Below, one piece after another: positions 39,364 through 56,451 of a stretch of DNA of 64,000 bases (its first letter is position 1; each line of letters begins with the position of its first letter). The position numbers and the translations under genes are program-made. This DNA is from Mesorhizobium koreense (GTDB lineage Bacteria > Pseudomonadota > Alphaproteobacteria > Rhizobiales > Rhizobiaceae). The notes beneath the pieces are model-generated. The model had not been told where the DNA came from, did no database searches, and saw nothing but the letters and a program-made list of their open reading frames with translations. The stretch is from the NCBI RefSeq assembly GCF_031656215.1, contig NZ_CP134228.1, positions 744,001-808,000 of the forward strand. Direction: 5' to 3'.

Positions 39364-40068
39364 TCAGCCGCCGAGGAAGCTGCGGGCGACGTCCGGATTG
39401 GCGAGCAGTTCATTCCCCGTCCCGGTATAGGAGTTCCGCCCGTTGGCGAGCACGAAGCCTTTGTGCGCGATCGCCAGCGCCTGTTTGGCGTTCTGTTCGA
39501 CCATCGCCACGGTCACCCCGGTCCTGTTGATGGCGATGACGCGGTCGAAGATCACCGACATGAACAGAGGCGACAGCCCTGCCGTCGGCTCGTCGAGAAG
39601 GATCAGCTTCGGCTCGATCATCAATGCGCGGCCGAAAGCGACCATCTGGCGTTGGCCGCCTGAAAGCTCGCCCGCCGGCTGCCCGCGCTTGTCCTTCAGG
39701 TCGGGGAAGATCTCGTAGACGCTGTCTATGACCGCGCCATAGGCGTCGCGCCGGCTATAGGCCCCCATCTCGAGGTTTTCCTGCACGGTGAGCGAGGAGA
39801 AGACATTCGCCTCCTGCGGCACGAAGGCGATCTTGTGCGCGGCGAGCTTCTCCGAGCGCATGCCGGTGATGTCGGCGCCGTCGAAGCCGACCGTACCCTC
39901 GCTGATATTGAGCATGCCGAAGATCGCCTTCAGCATCGTCGATTTGCCGGCGCCGTTCGGCCCGACGATGACGCCGATCTCGCCGGCGTCGAGTGTCATG
40001 TCGACGCCCTTCAGGATGGTCATCTGGCCGTAGCCGGCATGAAGGTTGGTAACCGCGAGCAGGCTCAT
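39364..40068 (-). CDS. Liv-type ABC transporter ATP-binding protein (LivF-like)
   Basis: A 234-residue ATPase with Walker A VGPNGAGKST (about 34-43), signature LSGGQRQMVAFGRALM (about 136-151) and Walker B LILLDEPTAGLSP. The late VAMVEQNAKQAL has the Gln-Asn switch typical of LivF. The start at 40068 overlaps the livG stop as ATGA, so translation is coupled. The reading frame upstream of 40068 is a shadow of livG. Confidence 0.92.
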   Translation of the reverse strand: MSLLAVTNLHAGYGQMTILKGVDMTLDAGEIGVIVGPNGAGKSTMLKAIFGMLNISEGTVGFDGADITGMRSEKLAAHKIAFVPQEANVFSSLTVQENLEMGAYSRRDAYGAVIDSVYEIFPDLKDKRGQPAGELSGGQRQMVAFGRALMIEPKLILLDEPTAGLSPLFMSVIFDRVIAINRTGVTVAMVEQNAKQALAIAHKGFVLANGRNSYTGTGNELLANPDVARSFLGG

Positions 40069-40895
40069 GCCGACGCTCCGGCGCCACGCGCCGCCTCCAC
40101 GGCAGCCGAAATGGTGGTGGCGTTGCCGGTCGGCGAGCCGCCGAAATAAGCCTCGATCACGGTTTCGTTCTTCTGGATGTCGGCGATATGGCCCTGTGTC
40201 ATGACGGAGCCGGCGGCCATGACGATCACCGGGTCGCACAGCCGCGCGATCAGGTCCATGTCGTGCTCGATGACGAAGAAGGTGTAGCCGAGCTCCTGAT
40301 TCAGCCGCTCGATATTGCTGGCGAGATCGTTGAGCAGCGTCCGGTTGACGCCGGCGGCGATCTCGTCGAGCAGGACGATTTTGGCGTCGGCCATCATGGT
40401 ACGGCCGAGTTCCAGGAGCTTCTTCTGGCCGCCCGAAAGGTTTCCCGCCAGTTCATTCTTGACGTGGGTGATCTTCAGGAAGTCGAGCACCTCCTCGGCC
40501 TTGCGGCGGATGGCGGCTTCCTCGCCAGCCACCCGCGCTGGGCGGAACCAGGCTTCCACGAGGCTTTCCCCGGACTGGCGCGCCGGGACCATCATCAGAT
40601 TCTCCGTCACCGTCATGTGCGAGAATTCGTGGGCGATCTGGAAGGTCCTGAGCAGGCCGCGCGAGAACAGTTCGTGCGCCGCGAGGCCGGTCACGTCCTC
40701 GCCGTCGAGCAGGATGGTGCCGGAGGTCGGAACCAGATTGCCGGCCACCATGTTGAACAGCGTCGACTTACCGGCGCCGTTCGGCCCGATCAATCCGGTC
40801 ACCGAGCCGGCCGTGACCGAGAGGCTGCAGTCATTGACGGCCAGAAAGCCGCCGAAGCGCCTCGATACGCCCCGGAGTTCGATGATGGTTCCCAT
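40065..40895 (-). CDS. Liv-type ABC transporter ATP-binding protein (LivG-like)
   Basis: A 276-residue ATPase with Walker A GPNGAGKSTLF (about 36-46), a FQIAHEFSHMTVTENLMM Q-loop region typical of LivG, signature NLSGGQKKLLELGRTMM and Walker B IVLLDEIAAGVN, where the usual DEP is DEI. The ATG at 40895 has the ribosome site CAGGGAG; the frame runs further upstream without similarity. About 150 bases separate it from the alpha/beta hydrolase gene upstream, so it may be co-transcribed or have its own promoter there. Confidence 0.92.
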   Translation of the reverse strand: MGTIIELRGVSRRFGGFLAVNDCSLSVTAGSVTGLIGPNGAGKSTLFNMVAGNLVPTSGTILLDGEDVTGLAAHELFSRGLLRTFQIAHEFSHMTVTENLMMVPARQSGESLVEAWFRPARVAGEEAAIRRKAEEVLDFLKITHVKNELAGNLSGGQKKLLELGRTMMADAKIVLLDEIAAGVNRTLLNDLASNIERLNQELGYTFFVIEHDMDLIARLCDPVIVMAAGSVMTQGHIADIQKNETVIEAYFGGSPTGNATTISAAVEAARGAGASA

Positions 40896-41045
40896 GGCTC
40901 CCTGCGGCGGTTTGCCCGCCGCCTGATTCTTTTTCAGTGTGCCGAAGCGGTTCGACGATTGTCGGGCCGCCCCGCTCTTATGCCTTAGCATCGGCCCTTG
41001 CGCCTGTGAAGCGCGGCACCGCTCACCCGTCCGTCCGCCTCTGCT

Positions 41046-41879
41046 TCATTGTGTCGCCAGAAGTGCGCGCGTCAGCGGATGCGAGGCGTCCTCGAGACCC
41101 TCGATCACGCTGTAATGGTGGCGGTCCGGTTCCTCGACGCAGGCCGTCGACGCGCCAAGCCCTGCCCACACATTGGCGAGCAGCGCGTTCTGGCGCACGA
41201 ATTCGGCGCGCTCGCCGGCGCCGGCCCAGCAGATGAGGCGTGTGCCGGGCAGGGGCCTTAGGAGGGCGGGACTTTCGGCAAGCGCCTCATCCTCGTCGAG
41301 CTTGAGTGTCGCGTTCATGGCCGTCGTCATCATCGGGCGGAGGTCGTGCAGTCCCGAAATGGAGACGACGTTGCCGATGCGGGACCGCACGGCCACGGAG
41401 AGCGGCGAGGTGGCGGAGACCATGCGCGCGGCGAGATGGCCGCCCGCCGAATGGCCCGTCAGATGCAGCGGTCCGGCCACGCGCGCGGCGGCTGCTTCTA
41501 TCGCAACGCATACCTCGCGCGTGATGCCGGAGATCCGGTTTTCGGGGCAGAGCGTATAGGTCGGCATCGCAACCGCGAACCCGGCTTCTAGCGATCCCGC
41601 GGCCAGATGCGACCAACTGCTCTCGTCGAAGCGCATCCAGTAGCCGCCATGGATGAAGACGACGAGCCCCCTGGGCGCGCTGGCGGGGTGGAACAGGTCG
41701 AAACGATTGCGCTCGCCTTTGCCGTAGCGAATGGAAAGTTCCGCCCGTCCCTCGTGCTGCAGAAGATGCCGGAACGAAGCAGCGTCCTTTTCCCAGCGAT
41801 CGGGATAGGCAGCGCCGCCGGCGATGTTGACGGTATTGGCATAGGCGGCATCCCAGTCCTCGACGTGACGGAAAACCAT
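41046..41879 (-). CDS. Alpha/beta hydrolase, probable N-formylkynurenine formamidase
   Basis: A 277-residue serine hydrolase. The oxyanion-hole motif HGGYW is at 77-81, the nucleophile elbow GHSAGG has Ser144, and a C-terminal HHYSVIEG supplies the histidine. The acid is less clear (GERAEF in the expected position). The arrangement matches the HGGYW-type arylformamidases (AFMID family), which hydrolyse N-formyl-kynurenine to kynurenine. Location supports this: it is divergent from an operon holding tryptophan dioxygenase and kynureninase, and no metal-dependent KynB is seen. The start at 41879 has the site GGGAGGAG. A general esterase cannot be excluded. Confidence 0.78.
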   Translation of the reverse strand: MVFRHVEDWDAAYANTVNIAGGAAYPDRWEKDAASFRHLLQHEGRAELSIRYGKGERNRFDLFHPASAPRGLVVFIHGGYWMRFDESSWSHLAAGSLEAGFAVAMPTYTLCPENRISGITREVCVAIEAAAARVAGPLHLTGHSAGGHLAARMVSATSPLSVAVRSRIGNVVSISGLHDLRPMMTTAMNATLKLDEDEALAESPALLRPLPGTRLICWAGAGERAEFVRQNALLANVWAGLGASTACVEEPDRHHYSVIEGLEDASHPLTRALLATQ

Positions 41880-41990
41880 CGCTCCTCCCTCCGGCCGGTC
41901 TCAGGCCAGTCACCCAAGCCCGCCCCTCGTAGCGCCGGTGGCGCGGTGTGTCATCCCTATCTGCAGGTCGGAAATTATTTCAACCTTAAA

Positions 41991-42006
41991 ACTTCATGCT
42001 TGAAGT
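41991..42006. promoter_or_regulatory. Perfect palindrome in the divergent promoter region, candidate MarR operator
   Basis: ACTTCATGCTTGAAGT has two perfect six-base half-sites (ACTTCA and TGAAGT) around four bases. It sits between the divergent hydrolase and the monooxygenase/reductase genes, 52 bases before the latter's start, in the AT-richest part of that region. MarR regulators bind palindromes of this size and type, and a marR gene is the third gene of the operon. Confidence 0.5.
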
Positions 42007-42057
42007 AACTCGCCGGCGGTGTCATGCTCCGGTCAATCAGGGAGGAAGGAACGCAGG

Positions 42058-44349
42058 ATGAAAATCGCGATCCTCGGCGGCGGGCCCGCCGGCCTCTATT
42101 TCGCGATTTCGATGAAGCTCAGGGACGCCGGCCATCAGGTCACCGTCTATGAGCGCAATCGCGCCGACGATACGTTCGGCTGGGGCGTGGTGCTGTCCGA
42201 CGAGACGCTCGACAATCTCGCCGCCAACGATGCCAAAAGCGCGACCGCCATCCGCGAGCATTTCGCCTATTGGGGCGACATCGCCGTCATCCACAAGGGC
42301 GTGCGCACCGTCTCCACCGGTCACGGCTTTTGCGGCATCGGCCGCATGCGCCTGCTCACCCTGTTGCAGGCGCGCGCCCGCGAGCTGGGGGTCGAACTGG
42401 TCTTTGAAAAGGAGATCGACGACCCTCGTCCCTTCATGGTGGAAAACGACCTCGTTCTCGCGGCCGACGGGGTGAACTCGAAGGCGCGACATGCCTTCGA
42501 GCATGTCTTCAAGCCGGACATCGACATACGTAAATGCAAGTTCGTCTGGCTTGGCACGCACCAGAAATTCAATGATGCCTTCACCTTCATCTTCGAGAAG
42601 ACCGAGCATGGCTGGGTGTGGGCGCATGCCTACCAGTTCGACGCCGACACGGCGACGTTCATCGTCGAATGCAGCGAGGAGACCTGGAACCGCTTCGGCT
42701 TCGGCCGGATGAGCCAGGATGAATCGATCGCCGTGTGCGAGCGTATCTTCGCCAAGTATCTGGACGGAAACAGCCTGATCTCCAATGCCCGCCATCTGCG
42801 CGGCTCGGCCTGGATCAATTTCCCGCGCGTTCTGTGCGAACGCTGGTCGCACGAGAACCTGGCCCTGATGGGCGATGCGGCGGCGAGCGCGCATTTCTCG
42901 ATCGGTTCCGGCACCAAGCTGGCGCTTGAAAGCGCCATCGCGCTTGCCGACTATCTCCATTCCGAAAAGAGCCTCGATGCGGCTTTCGGGAAATACGAGG
43001 ATGCGCGGCGCACGGAGGTGCTGAAGCTGCAATCGGCGGCGCGCAACTCGCTGGAATGGTTCGAGGAGGTCGAGCGCTATCTCGATCTCGACCCGGTGCA
43101 GTTCAACTATTCGCTCCTGACGCGCTCGCAGCGCATCAGCCATGAGAATCTGCGCCTGCGCGATCCCCGATGGCTGGCCGGCGCGGAGGCCTGGTTCCAG
43201 AAGCATGCCGGCGCCCCGGCCAACACCAACCGGCCGCCCATCTTCGCGCCTTTCCGCCTGCGTGATCTGACCTTGAAAAACCGCATCGTCGTTTCGCCGA
43301 TGGCACAGTATCGCGCCGTCGACGGCACGCCGACCGACTGGCACTTCGTGCATTATTGCGAAAGGGCCAAGGGCGGCGCGGGGCTCGTCACCATCGAGAT
43401 GACATGCGTGTCGCCGGAGGGCCGCATCACGCCCGGCTGCACCGGCTTCTACAAACCCGAGCACGAAGCGGCGTGGAAGCGCATCGTCGGTTTCGTGCAT
43501 CGCGAGACCGAGGCGAAGATCTGCGCGCAGATTGGCCATTCGGGACCAAAGGGCTCCACGCAGCTTGGCTGGGAAGAGGCCGACGCGCCGCTCGCGGAAG
43601 GCAACTGGCCGCTGATCGCCGCCTCTTCCGTCCCCTGGTCACCGCAAAACCAGGTGCCGAAAGCGATGGACCGCGCCGATATGGACAGGGTGCGGGACCA
43701 GTTCGTCGCCTCTGCCCGCATGGCGGAACGCTGCGGCTTCGACATGGTGGAGTTGCATTTCGCCCATGGCTATCTGCTTTCCTCCTTCATTTCGCCGCTT
43801 ACCAACAAGCGCACCGACGAATATGGCGGGTCGCTCGAAAACCGCATGCGCTATCCGCTGGAGATTTTCCGGGCGGTACGCGCCGTGTGGCCGGAAGAAA
43901 AACCGATCTCGGTGCGCATATCGGCGAATGACTGGGTCGGCGAGGAGGGCGTGACGCCGGGGGCGGCAGTCGGGATCGCGCGCATGCTGTATGAGGCGGG
44001 CGTCGATATCTGCGATGTCTCGGCAGGCCAGACCTCGACACGGGCAAAGCCTGTTTACGGCCGCATGTTTCAGACGCCCTTTTCCGACCGTATCCGCAAC
44101 GAGACCGGCATGGCGACCATTGCGGTGGGCAACATCTACGAGCCGGACCACGCCAATTCCATCCTCATGGCCGGCCGCGCGGACCTCGTCTGCATGGCGC
44201 GTCCGCATTTGGCCGATCCGTACTGGACGCTGCATGCGGCGGCGAAGCTCGGCGACCACGGCGTGAAATGGCCCGATCCCTACCTCCCCGGCCGCGACCA
44301 GCTATACCGGCTGGCCAAGCGCCAGGAAGCCATGACGGGGAAGGTGTGA
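42058..44349 (+). CDS. 2-Aminobenzoyl-CoA monooxygenase/reductase (fused; salicylyl-CoA 5-hydroxylase-like)
   Basis: A 763-residue fusion. The N-terminal half is a single-component FAD monooxygenase: [19 protein letters not shown] at 2-20, [18 protein letters not shown], and the FAD segment [20 protein letters not shown] near 269-288. The C-terminal half (from about 390) is an Old Yellow Enzyme barrel: [38 protein letters not shown] and [19 protein letters not shown]. This is the layout of 2-aminobenzoyl-CoA monooxygenase/reductase, known from Azoarcus evansii, which hydroxylates and reduces the ring of anthraniloyl-CoA. Homologues are also labelled salicylyl-CoA 5-hydroxylase. The ATG at 42058 follows GGAGGAAGGA; the CoA ligase and kynurenine genes downstream favour the anthraniloyl substrate. 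Confidence 0.87.
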
Positions 44350-44370
44350 TGTACGGCGACAAGGAAAGCA

Positions 44371-44510
44371 CCCCCACTCCGGTTCGCTTCGCGAACCACC
44401 TCTCCCCCTGCCCGAGGGAGAGGAAGGGCGCCCGACTCGCGGCCGGCATTTCCTCTACCTCACGCAGTGGGGGAGAGGTGGCTCGGGCGCAGCCCGAGAC
44501 GGAGTGGGGG
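44371..44510. repeat. Inverted-repeat element between the monooxygenase and SDR genes
   Basis: Arms at 44371-44408 and about 44468-44510 are inverted copies: both ends read CCCCCACTCCG on one strand and the inner sides read CCACCTCTCCCCC. It is the same module as the inner arms of the ccmA-ccmB element (21878-22017). The stretch 44350-44545 holds nothing else. Confidence 0.8.
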
Positions 44511-44545
44511 TATAGCGGCGGGCCCGGAACCACGGGGTCGATTCA

Positions 44546-45298
44546 ATGACCGCCCTTCATCACGCCCTGGTCAGCGGCGGCGGGTCAGGCATCGGCCGGG
44601 CGGTCGCGCTTTCGCTTGCCGAATCCGGTATCGCGGTGACCGTCTGCGGCCGCAAGGCCGCGCCTCTGGAAGCGGTCGCGGTGGGAAATCGGAATATCCA
44701 CGCTCATGTCGCCGACGTAACCGACGAGGCCTCCGTCGCGGCGCTCTATGAAGCCGCCGAAGGCGCGCGCGGCCCCTTCGACATTGTCGTCGCCAATGCC
44801 GGCACCGCCTCCAGCGCGCCCGCCTATAGGACGACGCTCGAAGACTGGAACCGTATTCTCAATGTCAATCTGACGGGAGCGTTCCTTACCGTGCGCCCGG
44901 CGCTGAAAGGCATGGCAGAGCGCGGGCGCGGACGCATCGTCTTCATCGCTTCCGTCGCCGGCCTGCGCGGCTCGGCCTATGTGGCGCCCTATGTCGCGTC
45001 CAAGCATGGCGTGGTCGGGCTCATGAGGGCGCTTTCCGCCGAATTGCTTAAGACCGGCGTCACCGTCAATGCGATCTGCCCCGGCTATGTCCAGACCGAG
45101 ATGCTGGAGGAATCGATCCGGCGCGTCATGGAGAAGACCGGCCGCGGCGAGGAGGAGGCCCGGCGCGGCTTTGCCGAGACCAATCCCAATCACCGGCTGA
45201 TCCAGCCCGAGGAGGTCGCGGCCGCCGCCATGTGGCTGGTCAGCGACGCAGCTATCTCGGTCACCGGCCAGGCGATCGCCATTTCGGGAGGCGCGTGA
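44546..45298 (+). CDS. SDR family oxidoreductase (3-hydroxyacyl-CoA dehydrogenase-like)
   Basis: A 250-residue short-chain dehydrogenase. The NAD(P) motif SGGGSGIGRAVAL is at 10-22, VVANAGTASSAP is near 87, and the catalytic Ser, Tyr and Lys are in FIASVAGLRG and YVAPYVASKHGVVGLM. The end ITGQAIAISGGA-like segment (SVTGQAIAISGGA) is standard. In an anthraniloyl-CoA operon an SDR of this type probably oxidises or reduces a hydroxy/keto-acyl-CoA after ring reduction, in a beta-oxidation-like step; the exact substrate is inferred. Its stop overlaps the marR start (TGATG). Confidence 0.85.
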   Translation: MTALHHALVSGGGSGIGRAVALSLAESGIAVTVCGRKAAPLEAVAVGNRNIHAHVADVTDEASVAALYEAAEGARGPFDIVVANAGTASSAPAYRTTLEDWNRILNVNLTGAFLTVRPALKGMAERGRGRIVFIASVAGLRGSAYVAPYVASKHGVVGLMRALSAELLKTGVTVNAICPGYVQTEMLEESIRRVMEKTGRGEEEARRGFAETNPNHRLIQPEEVAAAAMWLVSDAAISVTGQAIAISGGA

Positions 45299-45768
45299 TG
45301 GTGAGTGCGCCGTTGACGGCCTTCCAGCCCGATGCGCCTTCCAAGGACCGGCTTCGCCTGTGGATCAGGCTCCTGCGCGCCTCGCGCTCCATCGAGGCCG
45401 AGTTGCGCGAGCGGCTGAAGACGGAATTCGGCTCGACCCTGCCCCGCTTCGACGTGCTCGCCGCGCTCTATCGCGAGCCGGACGGGATGGCGATGAGCGG
45501 TCTTTCGCGCTTCCTGCTCGTCTCCAACGGCAATGTGACCGGCATCGTGGAGCGGCTGGTGGCGGACGGCCTGGTTGCGCGCTCCAAGCGCGACGGCGAC
45601 CGGCGCGCTTCCATCGTGCGGCTGACGGAACTGGGCACGGAGACCTTCGCCCGCATGGCTGCCGCGCATGAGGGCTGGGTGGACGCACTGCTCGGCGGGG
45701 TGGGCAGGGAGGAAGCCCGGCATCTCGCCGAGATGCTGAAATCGTTCCGGAGCGAATGGGAGGAATAA
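45298..45768 (+). CDS. MarR family transcriptional regulator
   Basis: A 156-residue MarR-type regulator with the winged helix-turn-helix in the centre: LPRFDVLAALYREPDGMAMS, then GLSRFLLVSNGNVTGIVERL (recognition helix) and the wing KRDGDRRASIVRLTELG. Members in aromatic-acid clusters usually repress and release DNA when the acyl-CoA intermediate binds. It overlaps the SDR stop and ends one base before the CoA ligase gene, so it is part of the operon and probably autoregulates it. Confidence 0.9.
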   Translation: MVSAPLTAFQPDAPSKDRLRLWIRLLRASRSIEAELRERLKTEFGSTLPRFDVLAALYREPDGMAMSGLSRFLLVSNGNVTGIVERLVADGLVARSKRDGDRRASIVRLTELGTETFARMAAAHEGWVDALLGGVGREEARHLAEMLKSFRSEWEE

Positions 45769-45769
45769 G

Positions 45770-47395
45770 ATGCTTGGGCCATCGGCGCATACCGACACAT
45801 TCGCGCGCGACAAGCTGCCGCCTGCAGAAGAATGGCCGGAATTCCCGCTCTCGGGCTTCGACTACCCCGAATATCTCAATGCCGGTGTCGAACTCACCGA
45901 CCGCATGGTCGAAAAAGGCTTCGGCGACCATGTCGCGCTGATCGGCAACGGCCGTCGACGCACATACAAGGAACTGGCTGACTGGACGAGCCGGCTGGCG
46001 CATGCGCTGGTCGAGGATTACGGCGTCCAGCCCGGCAACCGCGTATTGATCCGCTCGGCCAACAACCCGGCCATGGTCGCCTGTTGGCTTGCCGCGACCA
46101 AGGCCGGCGCCGTCGTCGTCAACACGATGCCGCTCTTGCGCGCCGGCGAACTTTCCAAGATCGTCGACAAGGCTGAAATCTCGGTCGCACTCTGCGACAC
46201 GAGGCTGATGGACGAGATGGTCGCCTGCGCCAAGACTAGCGGCTTCCTCAGACAAGTGATCGGCTTCGATGGCACCGCCAATTTCGACGCCGAACTCGAT
46301 CGCATCGCCCTCGACAAGCCGGTGATCTTCGAAGCCGTGAAAACCGGCCGCGACGACGTGGCGCTTCTCGGGTTCACCTCCGGCACGACCGGCGTGCCCA
46401 AGGCGACGATGCATTTCCACCGGGACCTTCTGATCATCGCCGACGGCTATGCGAAGGAGGTGCTCGGCGTCACGCCCGACGATATCTTCGTCGGTTCGCC
46501 GCCGCTTGCCTTCACCTTCGGCCTCGGCGGGCTGGCGGTCTTCCCGCTGCGCTTCGGAGCGGCCGCCACGCTCTTGGAAAATGCCTCGCCGCCCAACATG
46601 ATCGAGATCATCGAGAAATACCGCGCGACGGTCTCCTTCACCGCGCCGACCGCCTACCGCGCCATGCTGAAGGCGATGGACGAGGGGGCCGATCTCTCCT
46701 CGCTGCGCGCCGCGGTCTCTGCCGGCGAAACGCTGCCGGCGCCCGTCTTCGAGGAATGGACGAAGAAGACCGGCAAGCCGATCCTCGACGGGATCGGCTC
46801 GACGGAAATGCTGCATATCTTCATCACCAACCGTTTCGGCGATGCCGCGCCCGGCACGACCGGGCGGCCGGTTACGGGTTACGAGGCAAAGATCGTCGAC
46901 GACGACATGAACGAAATGCCGCGTGGCGAGATCGGCAAGCTCGCGGTGCGCGGGCCGACCGGCTGCCGTTATCTCGATGATCGACGCCAGCGTATCTATG
47001 TCCGCGACGGCTGGAACCTGACCGGCGATTCCTTCATCCAGGACGAGGGCGGTTATTTCCATTTCGCCGCGCGCTCGGACGACCTCATCATCTCGTCGGG
47101 CTACAATATCGCCGGCCCGGAGGTGGAGGCGGCACTTCTTTCCCATGAAGAGGTGGTGGAATGCGCCGTGATCGGCGCGCCCGACCAGGCCCGGGGGCAG
47201 ATCGTCGAGGCCTATGTCGTACTGGCCGAGGGCGTTGCCCGTGACGCGCTCACCGTCAAGCGGTTGCAGGACCACGTGAAGGCGACGATCGCGCCGTATA
47301 AATATCCGCGCTCGGTGAAGTTCATCGAAGCCTTGCCGAAGACACAGACGGGCAAGATCCAGCGCTTCCGGCTGAGGGAGGGAAAAGGATCATGA
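45770..47395 (+). CDS. Benzoate-CoA ligase family enzyme, probable 2-aminobenzoate-CoA ligase
   Basis: A 541-residue adenylate-forming acyl-CoA synthetase. The AMP-binding P-loop LGFTSGTTGVPKATMHFHRD is near 199-218, the A5 motif is GIGSTEMLHIFITNR, A7 is GWNLTGDSF, A8 is RSDDLIISSGYNIAGPEVE, and the C-terminal catalytic Lys lies in PKTQTGKIQRF near 523. The TMHFHRD and GSTEMLHIF forms are those of the benzoate/2-aminobenzoate-CoA ligase group. With kynureninase downstream and the fused monooxygenase upstream, anthranilate is the likely substrate. It would make 2-aminobenzoyl-CoA with ATP and CoA. Confidence 0.88.
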   Translation: MLGPSAHTDTFARDKLPPAEEWPEFPLSGFDYPEYLNAGVELTDRMVEKGFGDHVALIGNGRRRTYKELADWTSRLAHALVEDYGVQPGNRVLIRSANNPAMVACWLAATKAGAVVVNTMPLLRAGELSKIVDKAEISVALCDTRLMDEMVACAKTSGFLRQVIGFDGTANFDAELDRIALDKPVIFEAVKTGRDDVALLGFTSGTTGVPKATMHFHRDLLIIADGYAKEVLGVTPDDIFVGSPPLAFTFGLGGLAVFPLRFGAAATLLENASPPNMIEIIEKYRATVSFTAPTAYRAMLKAMDEGADLSSLRAAVSAGETLPAPVFEEWTKKTGKPILDGIGSTEMLHIFITNRFGDAAPGTTGRPVTGYEAKIVDDDMNEMPRGEIGKLAVRGPTGCRYLDDRRQRIYVRDGWNLTGDSFIQDEGGYFHFAARSDDLIISSGYNIAGPEVEAALLSHEEVVECAVIGAPDQARGQIVEAYVVLAEGVARDALTVKRLQDHVKATIAPYKYPRSVKFIEALPKTQTGKIQRFRLREGKGS

Positions 47396-47442
47396 CGGTA
47401 CTTGTTACGAGGGTGGCTTCTACCCCCAGCCTCTCCCTGCAA

Positions 47443-47620
47443 GGGCAGGGCGATCGCATATGGAATTCGCGCGGCTTCGTACCCCCACCCCTGTCCCCTC
47501 CCCACAAGGGGGAGGGAGACGCCGTCATCGCTTTCCGAGATGAAATCATCGAAATTTGCGCTATGCAGCGCCAGACTAAGTCCCCCTCCCCCTTGTGGGG
47601 AGGGGCCAGGGGTGGGGGTC
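47443..47620. repeat. Inverted-repeat element between CoA ligase and kynureninase genes
   Basis: Main arms lie at 47481-47517 and 47584-47619: ACCCCCACCCCTG then CCTCCCCACAAGGGGGAGGG, and the reverse complement. A further module at 47443-47463 (GGCAGGGCGATCGCATATGG) recurs inverted at 51047-51066 and, slightly diverged, at 21851-21869. The gap 47396-47642 holds only this element and the start of kynU. Confidence 0.8.
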
Positions 47621-47642
47621 TATCGGCGGTCGAGGCAGTCGC

Positions 47643-48836
47643 ATGACCGATTTCACACGCACCCGCGCCCTGTTCGATCTTCCCGCAGGCGTCGTCTATC
47701 TCGACGGCAATTCGCTCGGGCCGCTGCCGAAGGGCGTGGCCGAGCGGGTCTCCCGCACCGTCCGCGACGAATGGGGCGCGATGCTGATCCGCGGCTGGAA
47801 CGACGCGGACTGGATCGGCCTGCCGGAAAGGGTGGGCGACAGGATCGCCAGGCTGGTCGGCGCACCGAAAGGCACGGTGATGGCCGGCGATTCCACCTCG
47901 GTCAATCTGTTCAAGGTGCTGACAGCGGCGCTTTCGGTTGCCGGGACGCGCCGCGTGGTTCTGTCCGACAGCGGCAATTTCCCCAACGATCTCTATGTCG
48001 CGCAGGAGGCGGTCCGGGCCCTGGGCATGGGCTACGAATTGAAGATCGCGGCGCCTGAAGCGATAGAGCGGACGATTGACGAAACCGTCGCTGTCCTCAT
48101 GCTGACCGAGGTCGACTACCGCACCGGTCGTCTCCACGACATGAAGTCGCTGACGGAGAAAGCACACAAGGCGGGGGCGATCGCGGTCTGGGATCTTTGC
48201 CATTCCGCCGGCGCCCTGCCGATCGACCTCGATGGCGCCGATGCCGATTTCGCCATCGGCTGCGGCTACAAATATCTGAATGGCGGCCCTGGCGCGCCGG
48301 CTTTCATCTATTGCAAGCCGGAATGGGCAAAGCGCGCCGCCCCGGCCCTCGGCGGCTGGATGGGCCATGCGGAGCCCTTTGCTTTCGATCTTCAGTACCG
48401 GCCTGGCGACGGCATCACGCGCATGCGCGTCGGCACGCCGCCGATCCTCTCCATGGCCGCGCTCGATGCGGCGCTCGACGTGTGGGACGGAGTGGACATG
48501 AAGGCTGTCCGTGCTCGCTCGATCGAGCTGTCGGAATGCTTCATCAGGGAAGTGGAGGCACGCTGTTCCAGACTGGAGCTTGCCTCGCCACGCGATCCCA
48601 GCCGGCGTGGCAGCCAGGTGTCCTTCCGCTTCAAGCACGGTTATGAAACCATGCAGGCGCTGATCGCGGCCGGCGTGATCGGTGATTTCCGCGCGCCCGA
48701 CATCATGCGCTTCGGCTTCACGCCGCTCTATCTCGGCATGGACGATGTGCTCACCGCCGTCGACCGGCTGGAAGACGTGATGAAACGCCGGCTCTGGGAA
48801 GAACCGGCCTATGCCGTGCGGGCGAAGGTGACGTGA
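47643..48836 (+). CDS. kynU: Kynureninase
   Basis: A 397-residue PLP enzyme of fold type I that cleaves L-kynurenine to anthranilate and L-alanine. Landmarks are [14 protein letters not shown] at 16-29, [17 protein letters not shown] near 49, [15 protein letters not shown] near 82, and the PLP-binding Lys210 in [16 protein letters not shown]. The C-terminal [20 protein letters not shown] is also typical. The ATG at 47643 gives the normal length; an open frame upstream translates the repeat. Its stop overlaps the dioxygenase start as TGATG. Confidence 0.95.
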
Positions 48837-49669
48837 TGGGCGCGGACGATTTGAAGGAAAAAATGGCGGCCGCCGAACTGAGGCCGTCGATGTCCTACAG
48901 CGACTATCTCCAACTCGACAAGGTGCTGACCGCGCAGGCACCGATTTCCGCCTCGCCGGACGAGCTTCTCTTCATCATCCAGCATCAGACCTCGGAACTG
49001 TGGATGAAACTCGCTATCAGCGAATTGAGGGGCGCCATGCAGGCGGTGGCGGCGGACGAGTTGCGCCCCGCTTTCAAGAAGCTGACCCGCGTCGCCCGTA
49101 TTTTCGAACAGTTGAACAATGCCTGGGACGTGCTGAGGACGATGACGCCCAGCGAATATACGAGTTTTCGCGCCGTGCTGGGACAATCGTCGGGCTTCCA
49201 GTCATGGCAATACCGAGCCATCGAATTCCTCGCCGGCAACCGCAATGCCGCGATGCTGAAGCAATATGCCGATCAGCCCGACCGCGTGCGCATACTGGAA
49301 GCGATCCTGGTCCGGCCGAGCCTCTATGACGAGGCGCTGTTGCTGCTTGCCCGTAACGGCTTCGATATCGGCGAGGAAGCTTACCGCACCGACTGGAGCC
49401 GGAAACGCGAGCCGAGCGCGGCGGTCCAGGTGGCGTGGAAAGCCGTTTATGTCGAACCCGACAAATATTGGGGGCTTTACGAACTGGCCGAGAAGCTGGT
49501 CGATTTTGAGGATTATTTCCGCCGCTGGCGGTTCAATCACGTGACGACGGTGGAACGGATCATCGGAATGAAACGCGGCACGGGCGGGACCTCCGGCGTT
49601 TCCTACTTGCGCAAGATGCTGGATGTGGAACTCTTTCCAGAACTGTGGCATCTGCGAACGGAACTATAA
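48836..49669 (+). CDS. kynA: Tryptophan 2,3-dioxygenase
   Basis: A 277-residue haem dioxygenase that opens the indole ring of L-tryptophan to give N-formylkynurenine. The substrate-binding His50 is in [19 protein letters not shown], the segment [18 protein letters not shown] is diagnostic, and the haem-ligand His235 lies in [20 protein letters not shown] with the [10 protein letters not shown] loop after it. Length matches the tetrameric bacterial enzyme (about 280). The ATG at 48836 overlaps the kynureninase stop; a GTG one codon earlier is possible. A binding-protein gene follows after 24 bases. Confidence 0.96.
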
Positions 49670-49693
49670 CGGATAACCAAAGGGAGGAATGGA

Positions 49694-50830
49694 ATGAGGA
49701 AAATACTGGCAGCTTGCGTCATGACCCTGGCTCTCGGCGTGGCGGGAACGGCCTTTGCCGAGCCGATCAAGATCGGCATGATCACGACGCTTTCCGGCGG
49801 CGGCGCCGGGCTCGGCGTCGATGTACGTGACGCCTTCGACCTCGCCATGAAGAAATCCGGCAACAAGGATATCCAGATCGTCACCGAGGACGACGCGATG
49901 AAGCCGGAACTCGCCGTGCAGATCGCAGACAAGATGCTGCAGAGCGACCATGTCGACCTCATGACCGGCATCATTTGGTCCAACCTCGCCATGGCCGTCG
50001 TGCCGAACGTCGTCGCTCAGGACGTGATCTACCTCTCGCCCAATGCCGGCCCGTCGGCGCTTGCCGGCAAGAACTGCAACAAGAACTATTTCAACGTCGC
50101 CTACCAGAACGACAATTTCCACGAGGCGATGGGCGAATACGCGAACAAGCAGTACAAGAAGGTCTTCATCCTGGCGCCGAACTATCCGGCCGGAAAGGAT
50201 TCACTGACCGGCTTCAAGCGCTATTACAAGGGCGAGGTCGCGGGCGAGATCTACACCAAGCTCGGCCAGACCGACTATGCGGCCGAGATCGCCCAGGTCC
50301 GTGCGTCCGGGGCCGATGCCGTCTTCTTCTTCCTGCCCGGCGGCATGGGCATCGCCTTCACCAAGCAATATGCGCAGTCGGGCGTCGGCCTGCCGCTTCT
50401 GGGCCCTGCCTTCTCCTTCAGCCAGGATGTTCTGGGCGCCATCGGAGATGCCGCGCTCGGCGTCAAGAACTCCGCCTCCTGGTCGCACGACCTCGACAAT
50501 GCGGCCAACAAGGAATTCGTCGAGGCGTTCAAGGCCGAATATAAAAGGTTGCCTTCGGTCTACGCCGCACAGGCCTGGGATACGGCGAATTTGATCCTGT
50601 CGGCCGCCGCCAAGGCCAGCGTCAAGGACAAGGACGCCTTCCGCGCAGCGCTCAAGGCGGCCGACTTCAAGTCGGTGCGCGGCAAGTTCAAGTTCAACAC
50701 CAACAACCACCCCATCCAGGACATCTATGTGCGCGAGGTGGTGAAGGAAGACGGCGTGCTGACGAACAAGATCGTCGGCACGGCCTTCACCGACCACGGC
50801 GACGCCTACGCTGAGCAGTGCAAGATGTGA
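49694..50830 (+). CDS. Branched-chain amino acid-type ABC transporter substrate-binding protein
   Basis: A 378-residue periplasmic binding protein with a signal peptide (MRKILAACVMTLALGVAGTA, cleaved near AFA-EPI) and the Peripla_BP_6 core: IKIGMITTLSGGGAGLGVDV, then DAMKPELAVQIADKMLQ, YLSPNAGPSALAGKNCNK and a late YAAQAWDTANLI. It begins 24 bases behind tryptophan dioxygenase with an AGGGAGGAATG-type ribosome site and is followed by livH, livM, livG and livF. Its operon position suggests it brings in tryptophan, kynurenine or anthranilate; this is inference. Confidence 0.88.
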   Translation: MRKILAACVMTLALGVAGTAFAEPIKIGMITTLSGGGAGLGVDVRDAFDLAMKKSGNKDIQIVTEDDAMKPELAVQIADKMLQSDHVDLMTGIIWSNLAMAVVPNVVAQDVIYLSPNAGPSALAGKNCNKNYFNVAYQNDNFHEAMGEYANKQYKKVFILAPNYPAGKDSLTGFKRYYKGEVAGEIYTKLGQTDYAAEIAQVRASGADAVFFFLPGGMGIAFTKQYAQSGVGLPLLGPAFSFSQDVLGAIGDAALGVKNSASWSHDLDNAANKEFVEAFKAEYKRLPSVYAAQAWDTANLILSAAAKASVKDKDAFRAALKAADFKSVRGKFKFNTNNHPIQDIYVREVVKEDGVLTNKIVGTAFTDHGDAYAEQCKM

Positions 50831-50877
50831 GGGGAGTTCTGTCTCTCTTCATTGGACGAGGGTTCGCGTATGAAGAT

Positions 50878-51066
50878 ACCCCCACCCCTAACCCCTCCCC
50901 ACAAGGGGGAGGGGGATTCCGCTCTGACGTCGTACGGCATCAATCTTTGATGATTTTGGCTCAGAGCGCGGTGGCAGCATCTCCCTCCCCCTTGTGGGGA
51001 GGGGACAGGGGTGGGGGTAAGCAGCCACGCAAACCTTGCGTAACTTCCATATGCGATCGCCCTGCC
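50878..51066. repeat. Inverted-repeat element between binding-protein and permease genes
   Basis: Main arms at 50878-50914 and 50982-51018 are inverted copies of the module seen at 47481-47619 (ACCCCCACCCCT, CCTCCCCACAAGGGGGAGG). A second module at 51047-51066 is the inverted copy of 47443-47463. The region 50831-51107 contains nothing else. It may act as a processing or attenuation element between a highly expressed binding protein and its permeases. Confidence 0.8.
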
Positions 51067-51107
51067 TTTCTCGGCTGCCATCCGCAGAGGACGATGCTCA
51101 CCAAGAC

Positions 51108-52028
51108 ATGTCCACTGACCTCCTCATAGAACAGGTGCTCAACGGCGTTCAGTTCGGCGTCATGCTGTTCCTGATGGCGGCCGGGCTGACGCTGATCTTC
51201 GGCGTCATGGGGCTGATCAATCTGGCGCATGGATCGCTCTATATGGTCGGTGCCTTCGCCTGCGCGGCGGTCGCGGCGGCGACGGGTTCGTTCTGGCTCG
51301 GCCTCGCCGCGAGCCTCGCCGCGGCTGCTGCTGCCGGCGCCATCGTGGAGGTCCTCGTGGTGCGGCGTCTCTACGGCCGCGACCACCTCGATCAGGTGCT
51401 CGCCACCTTCGCGCTGATCCTCATCTTCTCCGAAGGTATGCGCTGGCTGTTCGGTTCCTCGCCGCTCTACCTGAACATCCCTTCGGCGCTTTCGGGCGCC
51501 GTGTCGCTGCCCGGCGGGCTCGACTATTCGCTCTACCGGCTCTTCATCATCGTCGTCGGCATAGCGGTGGCGGCGGGGCTCTATTTCCTCATCGCGCATA
51601 CGAGGCTCGGCATGCGCATCCGCGCCGGCGAATCCGACCGCGAGATGATCGCCGCCCTCGGTGTCGATATCACCACGCTCTATACGCTGGTCTTCGCGCT
51701 CGGGGCGGCGCTCGCCGGTCTTGCCGGCGCCATGGTCGGCGCGTTGCAGTCGGTCCAGGTCGGCATGGGCGAGCCGGTCCTGATCCTCGCTTTCGTCGTC
51801 ATCGTCATCGGCGGTATCGGCTCGATCAAGGGCGCGCTCATCGGCGCCGTTCTGGTCGGCGTCATCGACACGCTCGGCCGCTTCCTGCTGCCGGCCGCGC
51901 TTCATCTCTTCCTGCCGGCCTCGCAGGCCGCCTCCATCGGCGGCGCGGTCGCCTCGATGCTCATCTACGTCTTCATGGCCCTCGTTCTGGTGGTCAGGCC
52001 GCAAGGCCTGTTCTCGGCAAATGCGTGA
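51108..52028 (+). CDS. Branched-chain amino acid-type ABC transporter permease (LivH-like)
   Basis: A 306-residue LivH-type permease with the motifs GVQFGVMLFLMAAGLTLIFG (about 13-32), INLAHGSLYMVGAFACAAVA, and the coupling loop EPVLILAFVVIVIGGIGSIK followed by GALIGA. Hydrophobicity indicates eight membrane segments. The ATG at 51108 was chosen because it starts at the family N-terminus; the frame upstream runs through the repeat. Its end overlaps the next permease by eight bases. Confidence 0.9.
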   Translation: MSTDLLIEQVLNGVQFGVMLFLMAAGLTLIFGVMGLINLAHGSLYMVGAFACAAVAAATGSFWLGLAASLAAAAAAGAIVEVLVVRRLYGRDHLDQVLATFALILIFSEGMRWLFGSSPLYLNIPSALSGAVSLPGGLDYSLYRLFIIVVGIAVAAGLYFLIAHTRLGMRIRAGESDREMIAALGVDITTLYTLVFALGAALAGLAGAMVGALQSVQVGMGEPVLILAFVVIVIGGIGSIKGALIGAVLVGVIDTLGRFLLPAALHLFLPASQAASIGGAVASMLIYVFMALVLVVRPQGLFSANA

Positions 52029-53043
52029 GGCGCCCCTGAAAACAGCCATGTCGATGCCGCTGTCGAGGCCCGTGTCCCGCGAGACGGCGGTCAGCCTGAC
52101 ACTCCTTCTTGCGCTTTTGGCAGGCGCGCTCATCGCACAAGCGAGCGGCGAGACGTTTTATGTCACGCTTGCCACACGCATCGCCATACTGGCTCTGGCG
52201 GCAACCGGCCTCAATCTGGCGCTCGGGCTTGGCGGGCTTGTCTCCTTTGGCCATGCCGCCTTCTTCGGCATCGGCGGCTATGCCTGCGGCATACTGGCGA
52301 TTCACGCCTATAATGGCGAACCGATGATCTTCGGCCTGCCCGGCACGCAGGCGATGCCCGTCATCTGGCTTGTGGCGCTTGTCGCGAGCGGCCTCGTGGC
52401 AGTGGTGATCGGCGCGTTGAGCCTGAGGACTTCCGGCGTCTATTTCATCATGATCACGCTGGCCTTCGCGCAGATGATCTACTATTTCGCCATCTCCTGG
52501 CCGGCCTATGGCGGCGAGGACGGGCTGTCGATATTCGTGCGCAACAGTTTCCCCGGCGTGAACACGCTCCGCCCGCTGCCGTTCTTCCTCATATGTTTCG
52601 TTCTGCTTGCCGCGGGGCTCTTCTTCTTCAAGCTGGTGCGCGATTCCCGTTTCGGTGCCGCCCTTCAGGCGGCGCGCCAGAACCCGGTTCGCGTCGCAGC
52701 CCTCGGCATCGCGCCCTTCCGCATCCGTCTGGCCGCGTTCGTCCTGTCAGCGATGATGACCGGCGTGGCCGGGGCGCTCTATGTCGACCTGAATCGCTTT
52801 GTCAGCCCCTCGATGCTGTCCTGGCAGATGTCGGGTGAACTGATCGTCCTGGTCGTCCTGGGTGGGACCGGCCGGCTTGCCGGCCCGCTCGCCGGTGCTG
52901 CGCTCTATGTGCTTTTCGAATTCCTGCTGGGCGGCATGACCGAGCGCTGGCAGTTCTTCCTCGGACTGATCCTGCTTTTCGTCGTGCTCTTTGCGCGTGG
53001 CGGCGTGGTCGGTCTCTTGGCCGGGAGGGCGCGCCATGGCTGA
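52021..53043 (+). CDS. Branched-chain amino acid-type ABC transporter permease (LivM-like)
   Basis: A 340-residue LivM-type permease. The family motif ALAATGLNLALGLGGLVSFG is near 60-79 with HAAFFGIGGYACGI after it, and the block LSLRTSGVYFIMITLAFAQM follows near 136. The C-terminal coupling region ELIVLVVLGGTGRLAGPLAG is near 277. The start at 52021 overlaps the livH end; internal Met codons at residues 10 and 12 are alternatives. Its stop overlaps the livG start by a few bases. Confidence 0.9.
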   Translation: MREAPLKTAMSMPLSRPVSRETAVSLTLLLALLAGALIAQASGETFYVTLATRIAILALAATGLNLALGLGGLVSFGHAAFFGIGGYACGILAIHAYNGEPMIFGLPGTQAMPVIWLVALVASGLVAVVIGALSLRTSGVYFIMITLAFAQMIYYFAISWPAYGGEDGLSIFVRNSFPGVNTLRPLPFFLICFVLLAAGLFFFKLVRDSRFGAALQAARQNPVRVAALGIAPFRIRLAAFVLSAMMTGVAGALYVDLNRFVSPSMLSWQMSGELIVLVVLGGTGRLAGPLAGAALYVLFEFLLGGMTERWQFFLGLILLFVVLFARGGVVGLLAGRARHG

Positions 53044-53788
53044 GCCAGCGCTCCGCATCACCGGGCTTGCCAAATCCTTCGGCGCGCTGAAGGCGACCGA
53101 CGGCGTCGATCTCGAACTCCGTGCCGGCGAAATCCACGCGCTGATCGGCCCTAACGGCGCCGGCAAATCGACCCTGATCGGCCAGATTGCCGGAACGCTC
53201 AGACCCGACCGCGGCGAGATCAGGCTTTACGGGCAGGAAGTGACGCATCTCGGCGCCGCGGCACGCTCGCGCCTCGGCATCGCGCGCACGTTCCAGGTAT
53301 CCTCGCTGGTCGATGAATTCTCGGCGCTGCGCAATGTCATGCTGGCGGTTCAGGGGCAAAGCCGTACGAGTTACCGTTTCATCCGCAACGTCATGAACGA
53401 TCGCGCCCTGGTCGAGCCGGCGCGCGAGGCGCTCGACCGCGCCGGTCTCGGACCACGCGCCGATGTGGCGGCTTCCGAACTGTCGCATGGGGAGCGCCGC
53501 CAGTTGGAGATCGCGGTCGCGCTGGCGCTCGGGCCCAAAATCTTCCTCCTGGACGAGCCGATGGCCGGCATGGGTCCGGATGGATCGCGCGCATTGACGG
53601 GTTTCCTCCATCGGCTGTGCGATGAGGCGCCGATCCTGCTTGTCGAACACGACATGGATGCGGTCTTCGCGCTCGCCGACCGCGTCTCGGTGCTGGTCTA
53701 TGGACGGGTCGTGGCCAGCGGTACGGTCGACGAGATCAGGAACGATCCGATCGTGCGCGAAGCCTATCTCGGGGAGCCGGCCGCATGA
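53036..53788 (+). CDS. Liv-type ABC transporter ATP-binding protein (LivG-like)
   Basis: A 250-residue ATPase with Walker A IGPNGAGKSTLIGQ (about 36-49), the LivG-type SRLGIARTFQVSSLVDEFSA Q-loop region, signature ELSHGERRQLEIAVALAL and Walker B IFLLDEPMAGMG, then ILLVEHDMDAV for the switch His. The SHGERR form of the signature is usual in LivG proteins. Ribosome site CCGGGAGGG precedes the ATG. It overlaps livF by ATGA (53785-53788). Confidence 0.93.
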   Translation: MAEPALRITGLAKSFGALKATDGVDLELRAGEIHALIGPNGAGKSTLIGQIAGTLRPDRGEIRLYGQEVTHLGAAARSRLGIARTFQVSSLVDEFSALRNVMLAVQGQSRTSYRFIRNVMNDRALVEPAREALDRAGLGPRADVAASELSHGERRQLEIAVALALGPKIFLLDEPMAGMGPDGSRALTGFLHRLCDEAPILLVEHDMDAVFALADRVSVLVYGRVVASGTVDEIRNDPIVREAYLGEPAA

Positions 53789-54471
53789 CGCTGCTCGAAG
53801 TCTCCGGGCTTGAGACATATTACGGCGCCAGCCAGGCGCTGTTCGGCGTCGAGCTTGCCGTCGGTGAGGGCGAGGTCGTGGCGCTGATGGGACGAAACGG
53901 CATGGGCAAGACCACGACCATCCGTTCGATCTGCAATCTGACCCCGGCGCGGGCTGGCACGATACGGTTCGCCGGCCGCGAGACGACGCGGCTCAGCCCG
54001 CACCGTATCGCCAGATGCGGCGTCGGCCTCGTGCCGGAGGGGCGACGCTGCTTCGCCAATCTGACGGTGGACGAAAACATGCGCGCCGCGGCACGTCCGG
54101 GTCGCTGGACGCCCGAGGCCGTCCACGATCTCTTTCCGCAGCTTGCCGGGCGGCGCCGGCAATATGCCGGTACGCTTTCGGGCGGCGAACAGCAGATGCT
54201 CGCCATCGGTCGCGCGCTGACGACCAATCCCACGCTTCTCATCCTCGACGAAGCGACCGAAGGCCTTGCGCCGCTGGTCCGCCAGGAAATCTGGGCCGCT
54301 TTGCGCCGGCTAAAGGAAGAGGGCCAGGCGATCCTTGTCGTCGACAAGACGCTGAAGGAACTGATGCCGGTCGCCGACCGATGTACGATCCTCGAAAAGG
54401 GCCGGACCGTCTGGCAAGGCCGCCCAGCCGAACTTGGCGTCGATATCCAGGACCGCTATCTCGGCGTCTGA
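53785..54471 (+). CDS. Liv-type ABC transporter ATP-binding protein (LivF-like)
   Basis: A 228-residue ATPase with Walker A MGRNGMGKTTTIRS (about 34-47), the LivF segment HRIARCGVGLVPEGRRCFAN, signature TLSGGEQQMLAIGRALTT and Walker B LLILDEATEGLAP, in which the usual DEP is DEA. The switch region reads LVVDKTLKEL where most LivF proteins have EQN. It completes the SBP-H-M-G-F set and precedes the RidA gene by 16 bases. Confidence 0.92.
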   Translation: MTLLEVSGLETYYGASQALFGVELAVGEGEVVALMGRNGMGKTTTIRSICNLTPARAGTIRFAGRETTRLSPHRIARCGVGLVPEGRRCFANLTVDENMRAAARPGRWTPEAVHDLFPQLAGRRRQYAGTLSGGEQQMLAIGRALTTNPTLLILDEATEGLAPLVRQEIWAALRRLKEEGQAILVVDKTLKELMPVADRCTILEKGRTVWQGRPAELGVDIQDRYLGV

Positions 54472-54487
54472 AGTGCAGGAGAATCGC

Positions 54488-54898
54488 ATGAGCACGAATC
54501 CCATTCATCGGGCGCTTCATCCGGCGGGATGGAAACCTGCCAAAGGCTACGCCAACGGCGTGGTGGCAAAGGGCCGCACCGTCTTTCTCGGCGGCCAGAT
54601 CGGCTGGACCGGCGAGCAGGTGTTCGAAACGGAGGATTTCATCGGCCAGATGCGGCAGGCGCTCGCGAATATCGTCGATATCCTGCGCGAGGCCGGCGGA
54701 CGGCCGGAGCACATCGTGCGCATGACCTGGTTCGTTACCGACAAGGCGGAGTATCTCGCCCGGCTCGACGAACTCGGCCAGGCCTATCGCGCCGTCATGG
54801 GCAAGCATTTCCCTGCCATGAGCGTGGTGCAGGTGGTGGCGCTCATGGAAGACGCGGCCAAGGTGGAGATAGAGGCGACCGCCGTCCTGCCGGAATGA
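54488..54898 (+). CDS. RidA/YjgF/Rid family protein (enamine/imine deaminase-like)
   Basis: A 136-residue Rid-superfamily protein. It has the family N-terminus (ALHPAGWKPAKGYANGVVAK), the GRTVFLGGQIGWTG beta strand, FIGQMRQALANIVDILREAG helix and the VVQVVALMEDAAKVEIEATA end. The catalytic Arg of RidA deaminases (the R in the late P-x-R-x2 segment) is not at the usual place: the segment reads FPAMSVVQV. Rid proteins hydrolyse enamines and imines, and related ones act on aminomuconate. As the last gene behind the anthranilate operon it could act on the aminated ring product. The start at 54488 follows GGAGAATCGC. Confidence 0.83.
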   Translation: MSTNPIHRALHPAGWKPAKGYANGVVAKGRTVFLGGQIGWTGEQVFETEDFIGQMRQALANIVDILREAGGRPEHIVRMTWFVTDKAEYLARLDELGQAYRAVMGKHFPAMSVVQVVALMEDAAKVEIEATAVLPE

Positions 54899-55152
54899 TT
54901 GCGGCGGTCCGCTGTCTGTTGCGACGGATAGAGGCGTTCGGCGCGATTGCTGTCCGGCAAACGACGAGACACCGTCAAATGCGGTGCATTCCGGTCAGTC
55001 CAAGGTAGCGTGCCTGGGTCCCGAAATCGGCTTTCAAGTTGCGAGCGTTCCGCTATGATCACGATAACTTTCAGCTTTTTATGGCCTGGGAGGAAATGAC
55101 AAACTGGAGACTTGCCGGAAAGTCCGGCTCGAAATCAGGGAGAATGCTTACC

Positions 55153-56367: not shown

Positions 56368-56378
56368 ACTGCATCGAA

Positions 56379-56423
56379 GCAATTCCAGGAAAAGTGGGAA
56401 CCGGTTTTCCGTTCGGAATTGCG
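56379..56423. repeat. Short palindromic repeat of rhizobial type
   Basis: The outer bases CAATTCC (56380-56386) and GGAATTG (56415-56421) pair, and the inner AACCGGTTTTCC stretch pairs partly with GGAAAAGTGGG. Elements of this sequence style (AATTCC...AAACGGTTTTCC...GGAATTG) are widespread between genes in Mesorhizobium/Rhizobium genomes. It lies 12 bases after a binding-protein stop. Confidence 0.7.
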
Positions 56424-56451
56424 TGAAACCAAAATGATGAAGCATGTAGCA

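Follow-up and report, generated by a model that had tools for sequence, protein, structure and literature searches.

What is the fate of tryptophan in a Mesorhizobium koreense genome in which the genes of the kynurenine pathway stand next to genes of the aerobic 2-aminobenzoyl-coenzyme A (CoA) pathway? The question is raised by the locus at positions 41046-54898 of the window, the whole stretch of 64,000 nucleotides analysed here (744001-808000 of a single-contig genome of 5.04 Mb, G000:C1; features are given in window numbering). An earlier note on this DNA had proposed that tryptophan or kynurenine is imported and degraded by a hybrid CoA route instead of by catechol, and our analysis supports the degradation route in that proposal and, more weakly, the import. 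We consider it highly probable that the locus degrades tryptophan (or kynurenine) via anthranilate and anthraniloyl-CoA to a ring-reduced CoA ester, because the ligase has an anthranilate pocket, because no KynB-type formamidase, gentisate dioxygenase or anthranilate dioxygenase scores over its cut-off in the genome, and because the genes are linked again in relatives, in varied orders.

In the route proposed, tryptophan 2,3-dioxygenase (TDO) would convert tryptophan into N-formylkynurenine, an alpha/beta-hydrolase, the formamidase candidate, would release kynurenine, and kynureninase would produce anthranilate from it. The ligase would then form anthraniloyl-CoA, to be hydroxylated and reduced by the fused flavoenzyme to 2-amino-5-oxocyclohex-1-ene-1-carbonyl-CoA. 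The aromatic substrate would be taken up by the Liv transporter and the MarR regulator would repress at a tandem operator, while ring opening and beta-oxidation would fall to enzymes encoded elsewhere.

All the genes that the note had named were found, at or very near the positions given for them (Table 1), most of the families scoring over curated cut-offs; for Pfam these were the AMP-binding ligase, the short-chain dehydrogenase/reductase (SDR), MarR, the binding protein, two permeases and two ATPases. The plus strand carries the whole gene run, full Liv set included, and only the hydrolase is divergent. Adjacent gene ends overlap or lie at most about 25 bases apart, apart from gaps filled by C/G-rich repeats, a spacing that is operon-like. 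Likely starts were judged by eye as ATG codons downstream of the open reading frame (ORF) starts for the fused gene (42058), kynureninase (47643) and Rid (54488). The families of these genes are a direct observation, from which we infer the substrate of each enzyme.

The most specific indication comes from the ligase. Its top match among solved structures is the anthranilate-CoA ligase AuaEII (4wv3, 301.5 bits), with lower scores for the benzoate ligases 2v7b (275.4 bits) and 4rlf (240.4 bits), and with the benzoate-CoA ligase family TIGR02262 it falls just short of the cut-off (370.2 against 375.25 bits). In AuaEII, an enzyme of aurachin synthesis and not, like the window ligase, of a proposed catabolic locus, residues F220, T221, F222, A293, G318, C319, H324 and I325 are needed for anthranilate, T221 binding its 2-amino group (PMC11253843; this and the other papers are cited from the parts of their text available). 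The counterparts in the window ligase, in an alignment read by eye, are F248, T249, F250, A318, G343, S344, H349 and I350, so that seven of the eight contacting residues are kept, the amino-group threonine included. The odd one, serine in place of C319, is likewise serine in both aligned benzoate ligases. These have Phe-Ala-Tyr where the window ligase and AuaEII have Phe-Thr-Phe. The Phe-Thr-Phe motif together with the alanine recurs in 89 of 91 ligase homologues from 173 loci with a fused gene, the other two being just 28-29% identical, and Phe-Thr-Phe is found in 31 of the 32 ligases of loci linked to TDO. We propose, from these residues, that the window ligase is an anthranilate-CoA ligase.

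The fused protein scores 1285.8 bits with family NF006101 (cut-off 1078) and comprises the Pfam domains FAD_binding_3 (residues 14-314) and Oxidored_FMN (408-744). An N-terminal flavin monooxygenase joined to a C-terminal Old Yellow Enzyme (OYE) domain is the hallmark of 2-aminobenzoyl-CoA monooxygenase/reductase, and the fused protein has this layout; it is proposed here to be that enzyme. The upper genes are equally well recognised. TDO reaches 403 bits with TIGR03036 (cut-off 390.7) and 352.7 bits with the solved bacterial enzyme 2nox; kynureninase reaches 292 bits with TIGR01814 (cut-off 246.4) and 415.5 bits with the solved bacterial enzyme 1qz9, the next-best kynureninase match in the genome being at 30%.

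Linkage was followed with the fused protein as query, in two sets of relatives. The first consists of the best 80 of 590 relatives, from named genomes, and the second of 93 near-full-length fused genes among the matches listed for genomes of the order (297 genomes, 267 with any match), the genome under study and four partial fused genes (G176, G144, G114, G047) left out. At least three genomes of the second set (G229, G069, G209) seem shared with the first. Six of the 93 stretches are shorter than 10 kb and were kept in n, as were loci cut by contig ends, so that linkage counts in both sets are lower bounds. By fused protein, the closest of the best 80 is a metagenome-assembled genome (MAG) of the Hyphomicrobiales (94%), followed by Nitratireductor, Aquibium, Aliihoeflea, Mesorhizobium and others (80-86%). 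Near the fused gene we found, in the first and second set respectively, the hydrolase in 19 and 14 loci, the ligase in 24 and 67, the hydratase in 75 and 74, the dehydrogenase in 67 and 65, kynureninase in 11 and 9, TDO in 20 and 13 and Rid in 53 and 71; TDO and kynureninase were both present in 10 and 9.

By our own estimate, two given genes of a 5 Mb genome would be about 12 kb apart or less in under 1% of cases; recurring as it does in relatives, the linkage of these genes goes beyond chance. The search for the same gene order, which the note had asked for, thus yields a recurring linkage (TDO in 20/80 and 13/93 loci) in which gene orders and strands vary among lineages (L153, L157, L159, L162, L176, L180, L183), and this variation argues for selection on the link between TDO and the fused gene. 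Against a fixed unit, ligase, TDO and kynureninase are all missing from the stretch in 55 of the 80 and 25 of the 93 loci, most Mesorhizobium loci of the first set among them, and several Nitratireductor loci have TDO but no kynureninase between ligase and TDO. Six annotated records were examined among the 30 matches listed of 95; in Paracoccus denitrificans, Phyllobacterium and Sulfitobacter the gene run is without tryptophan genes in the stretches seen, and Liv sets adjoin these versions too.

As the note had said, later beta-oxidation steps are not encoded at the locus. Many relatives have two genes, for an enoyl-CoA hydratase and an acyl-CoA dehydrogenase, between marR and the ligase; where the ligase follows marR within 5 kb, the pair occurs in 20 of 24 loci (first set) and 20 of 31 (second set). 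In the window the marR stop adjoins the ligase start. In the first set, L054 is likewise without both genes and three further loci have just the hydratase; among the eleven pair-less loci of the second set, some carry a hydratase upstream of the fused gene. The genome does encode a hydratase 71% identical to that of locus L043 (at 4,564,834) and a dehydrogenase 58% identical (at 4,552,076), some 3.8 Mb further along the contig than the window. They belong to a second cluster (L137, L138; G000:C1:4543000-4575000) with acyl-CoA dehydrogenases, hydratases, a CaiB-type transferase and a Liv set, together with an AliA-like ligase just under its cut-off (755 of 792.3) and a BadH-like SDR well under (264 of 431.2), a content suggestive of alicyclic acid breakdown. 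Among 18 relatives searched, the best hydratase falls inside the contig range of the fused-gene locus in 17, of which G314 has, among the weaker matches listed, a second copy (65%) elsewhere. Only in the 94% MAG (L041) does it lie on another contig, where it is 94% identical to that of M. koreense and stands beside a 58% dehydrogenase. It would seem that this lineage has either replaced the pair by the second cluster or moved it there, and at 4.55-4.57 Mb that cluster would possibly complete the pathway.

Two 14-bp sites that follow the pattern TTTCAAnCTTrAAA lie end to end, at 41978 and 41992, in the gap between the divergent hydrolase and the fused gene. Of 172 regions upstream of the fused gene, from across the order, 133 contain a match of at least 11 of 14 letters, against none of 172 shuffled ones, a count to be read knowing that the regions are related, that the consensus was derived from these same regions and that shuffling keeps single-base composition only. 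In a congener (G316) the hydrolase is divergent directly from the ligase, and that gap has a similar site by eye. Site 1 is one of two exact pattern matches in the genome; across the whole genome the pattern matched 10+8 times and its reversed control 9+6 times, a result that alone cannot separate operator from chance. A search of the divergent gap for inverted or direct repeats did not report the operator sites. MarR is the natural candidate binder and repressor at this putative tandem operator. The idea that this operator also controls the second cluster was rejected, the strongest site there scoring 14.4 (L137) and none above 9 (L138), as compared with 22.9 and 18.5 at the locus. The pair being absent from the operon and the second cluster having shown no strong operator site, the end of the pathway is putative.

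These gaps weigh against degradation through anthraniloyl-CoA, as do some family names and some relatives, and the other explanations draw on the same observations. The divergent hydrolase might be a lipase or esterase, with another, unrecognised enzyme acting as formamidase; this is unlikely in our judgement. The NCBIfam name of NF058665, with which it scores 362.7 bits (cut-off 320), is 'hormone-sensitive lipase', and its second match among solved structures is the lipase 9n8r. An alignment with the kynurenine formamidase of Drosophila (4e11, E=3e-14), however, covers residues 37-245, pairs the HGGYW and GHSAG motifs and stops short of the C-terminal histidine. The hydrolase so has the HGGxW motif, the nucleophile serine motif and the likeness to a proven member that characterise formamidases of the alpha/beta-hydrolase type. 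Scores over 60 bits for the hydrolase were obtained in 17 of 20 loci with TDO against 2 of 60 without in the first set (Fisher p 1.8e-12; in one of these two, L041, the stretch ends before the position of TDO), and in 8 of 13 against 6 of 80 in the second (p 2.7e-5), relatedness of the loci being uncorrected in both tests. The hydrolase matches alpha/beta-hydrolase models and not the KynB model (TIGR03035), to which the genome has no match. NF058665 also fits the cluster hydrolases of Ruegeria pomeroyi (361.9; L238:8103-8879) and Thalassospira marina (377.7; L241:7942-8790), and is thus over cut-off in all three such hydrolases, that of the window included; judging from these sequences, it is likely a kynurenine formamidase family, possibly misnamed.

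Very improbable, to our mind, is a role of the ligase and the fused enzyme in the conversion of salicylate, by way of salicylyl-CoA and gentisyl-CoA, or of another aryl acid, with the tryptophan genes as chance neighbours. NCBIfam does label NF006101 salicylyl-CoA 5-hydroxylase/oxidoreductase, and a 58.7% relative of the fused protein on a Cupriavidus taiwanensis plasmid (L243) has as neighbours a cupin gene and a gene of the fumarylacetoacetate hydrolase family. Such a setting is gentisate-like and fits a salicylyl-CoA/gentisate route, and one family name may cover two pathways. The salicylate pathway was nonetheless rejected for M. koreense, as the genome has no gentisate dioxygenase match and the ligase pocket resembles AuaEII and is unlike the two aligned benzoate ligases; the tryptophan genes, moreover, are linked anew in other loci and gene orders. 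The catechol pathway was rejected as well, the best match to anthranilate 1,2-dioxygenase (AntA) being just 107.7 bits for a cut-off of 671.9. The KynB, AntA and gentisate dioxygenase models were over cut-off in none of 14 control genomes, which leaves these absences without a positive control, and no usual alternative route was found in the genome, where 3-hydroxyanthranilate and other anthranilate routes were not searched for. We also give little credence to the idea that the kynurenine or anthranilate from the upper genes has some other use (signal, NAD precursor, quinolone) and that the CoA genes detoxify anthranilate instead of sustaining growth. It would account for the missing second half and for the lack of a strong operator site at the second cluster, and Cupriavidus metallidurans CH34, for which kyn and abm genes are predicted, showed no growth on anthranilate (PMC8879955), so that carrying such genes does not ensure growth. 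Against it stand the hydratase and dehydrogenase homologues in the genome, the Liv transporter in the same gene run and the fuller gene set of relatives. Of three other genomes of the genus, finally, only one encodes a ligase orthologue (92%), and the two without (best matches 32% and 31%) count against the tryptophan route.

The Rid protein that ends the run is a separate matter. It scores 78 bits with PF01042 (cut-off 27.3) and 60.3 bits with TIGR00004, under the cut-off of 106.25. A methionine is aligned to the arginine of the UK114 proteins 6tcd and 6tcc (asparagine in the best match, 5v4f), at the place of what we take to be the catalytic R105 of Escherichia coli RidA, and the same methionine is found in all 121 alignable Rid relatives (of 124). 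Since methionine replaces this arginine, which is essential for known Rid deaminases, a Rid deaminase with the catalytic arginine was rejected; the alignment places the protein in a Met-type, pathway-linked Rid subgroup. It might, rather doubtfully, hydrolyse 2-amino-5-oxocyclohex-1-ene-1-carbonyl-CoA to 2,5-dioxocyclohexane-1-carbonyl-CoA and ammonia without the catalytic arginine, after which a hydratase-family enzyme would open the ring, on the model of the ring-opening enzyme BadI. The missing arginine speaks against this, and the enamine may deaminate chemically, without an enzyme. We know of no enzyme for the deamination step of the aminobenzoyl-CoA pathway, and the proposal, if true, would assign one. 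It was suggested by the enamine nature of the product expected of the fused enzyme and by a C7H8O4 CoA ester of Arthrobacter Rue61a on anthranilate, which according to its authors may be cyclohexanedione-carboxyl-CoA (PMC3534580).

The Liv transporter may import an aromatic substrate: its binding protein is a Peripla_BP_6 member whose nearest solved structure is the Liv-type binding protein 4evq, presumably an aromatic-acid binder of Rhodopseudomonas palustris. The Liv sets beside versions of the run without tryptophan genes in the stretch seen make this part of the proposal weaker. Further Liv parts flank the locus: a permease/ATPase set upstream (37019-40991, minus strand) and a lone binding protein with an amidohydrolase (PRK05985, 563 against 408 bits) downstream (55039-57749, plus strand), possibly one split second system. 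The C/G-rich palindromic repeats, 77-80% alike pairwise, fill operon gaps at 44350-44545, 47396-47640 and about 50831-51069 and occur also at 21877-22017; in L041 no such gap separates the fused gene from the SDR. An Rfam scan of 40900-58000 gave no match over the gathering score. Two long OYE-family proteins are encoded at 28296-30278 (minus strand) and 33115-35169 (plus strand), in ORFs of 660 and 684 amino acids.

Table 1. Genes and operator-like sites of the locus (window numbering).
Feature	Positions	Strand	Evidence
Alpha/beta hydrolase, proposed kynurenine formamidase	41046..41879	-	HGGYW, GHSAGGH; NF058665 over cut-off; 4e11 E=3e-14; linked to TDO in relatives
Operator-like site 1 (TTTCAACCTTAAAA)	41978..41991	+	similar sites upstream of fused gene in relatives
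Operator-like site 2 (CTTCATGCTTGAAG)	41992..42005	+	directly adjoins site 1
Fused FAD monooxygenase/Old Yellow Enzyme, proposed 2-aminobenzoyl-CoA monooxygenase/reductase	42058..44349 (ORF from 42019)	+	NF006101
SDR family dehydrogenase	44546..45298	+	Pfam model over cut-off
MarR family regulator, proposed binder of 41978-42005	45298..45768	+	Pfam model; operator link putative
AMP-forming aryl-CoA ligase, proposed anthranilate-CoA ligase	45770..47395	+	best PDB match 4wv3 AuaEII; pocket residues
Kynureninase	47643..48836 (ORF from 47595)	+	TIGR01814; 1qz9
Tryptophan 2,3-dioxygenase (TDO)	48833..49669	+	TIGR03036; 2nox
Liv-type periplasmic substrate-binding protein	49694..50830	+	Peripla_BP_6; best PDB match 4evq
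LivH-like permease	51036..52028	+	Pfam model over cut-off
LivM-like permease	52021..53043	+	Pfam model over cut-off
LivG-like ATPase	52991..53788 (true start probably further in)	+	Pfam model over cut-off
LivF-like ATPase	53785..54471	+	Pfam model over cut-off
Rid (RidA/YjgF) family protein, Met at UK114 Arg place	54488..54898 (ORF from 54434)	+	PF01042

The cluster joins two known pathways and has similar clusters in relatives; it is real but largely ordinary, in a slightly reduced version. For a number of alphaproteobacteria it indicates a connection of tryptophan breakdown with the CoA route and not with catechol, and the conserved candidate operator should be useful for regulon prediction. 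The basic pathway being already known, what the locus points to beyond it is the possibly misnamed NF058665 and a Met-type Rid that may carry out deamination.

Drueppel reportedly described, in 2014, tryptophan degradation by Phaeobacter inhibens through kynurenine and 2-aminobenzoate, with 2-aminobenzoate handled as in Azoarcus evansii. The aminobenzoyl-CoA route has long been known (PMC4539516, PMC3534580, PMC6221969, PMC8879955): precedents are the aerobic 2-aminobenzoyl-CoA pathway of A. evansii (Schuehle 2001, as cited in PMC4539516), the ligase activity and CoA esters of Arthrobacter Rue61a (PMC3534580) and an indole degrader in which a 2-aminobenzoyl-CoA cluster was reported vital for anthranilate degradation (PMC6221969). 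No paper on the joined gene cluster was noticed among the literature matches listed, subscription papers being mostly outside reach, so that absence is not implied; the nearest predicts kyn and abm genes in one genome (PMC8879955). With the A. evansii pathway, whose sequences were not part of the comparison, the window shares by homology the CoA ligase and the fused monooxygenase/reductase. To these it adds TDO, kynureninase and the formamidase candidate, and its operon is without the hydratase and dehydrogenase.

The joining of kynurenine and aminobenzoyl-CoA genes, which the earlier note had singled out as noteworthy, turns out not to be rare. On the megaplasmid of R. pomeroyi DSS-3 (NC_006569.1), TDO, hydrolase, fused gene, SDR, MarR, ligase and Rid are found as in the window; there, however, TDO and hydrolase lie together on the divergent strand, a hydratase, a dehydrogenase and a cupin are present, and no kynureninase is annotated in the stretch seen. 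A near-identical operon is annotated on plasmid pCSC3H3 of T. marina (NZ_CP024200.1), in the run fused gene-SDR-MarR-hydratase-dehydrogenase-AMP-binding-kynU-kynA-thioesterase-Rid. Unlike the window, it has an enoyl-CoA hydratase and an acyl-CoA dehydrogenase after MarR and ahead of the ligase, as well as a 3-hydroxyacyl-CoA dehydrogenase and the thioesterase, and no Liv transporter is annotated in the stretch seen; the hydrolase is divergent in both, and the genes they have in common follow in the same order, from the fused gene through SDR, MarR, ligase, kynU and kynA to Rid.

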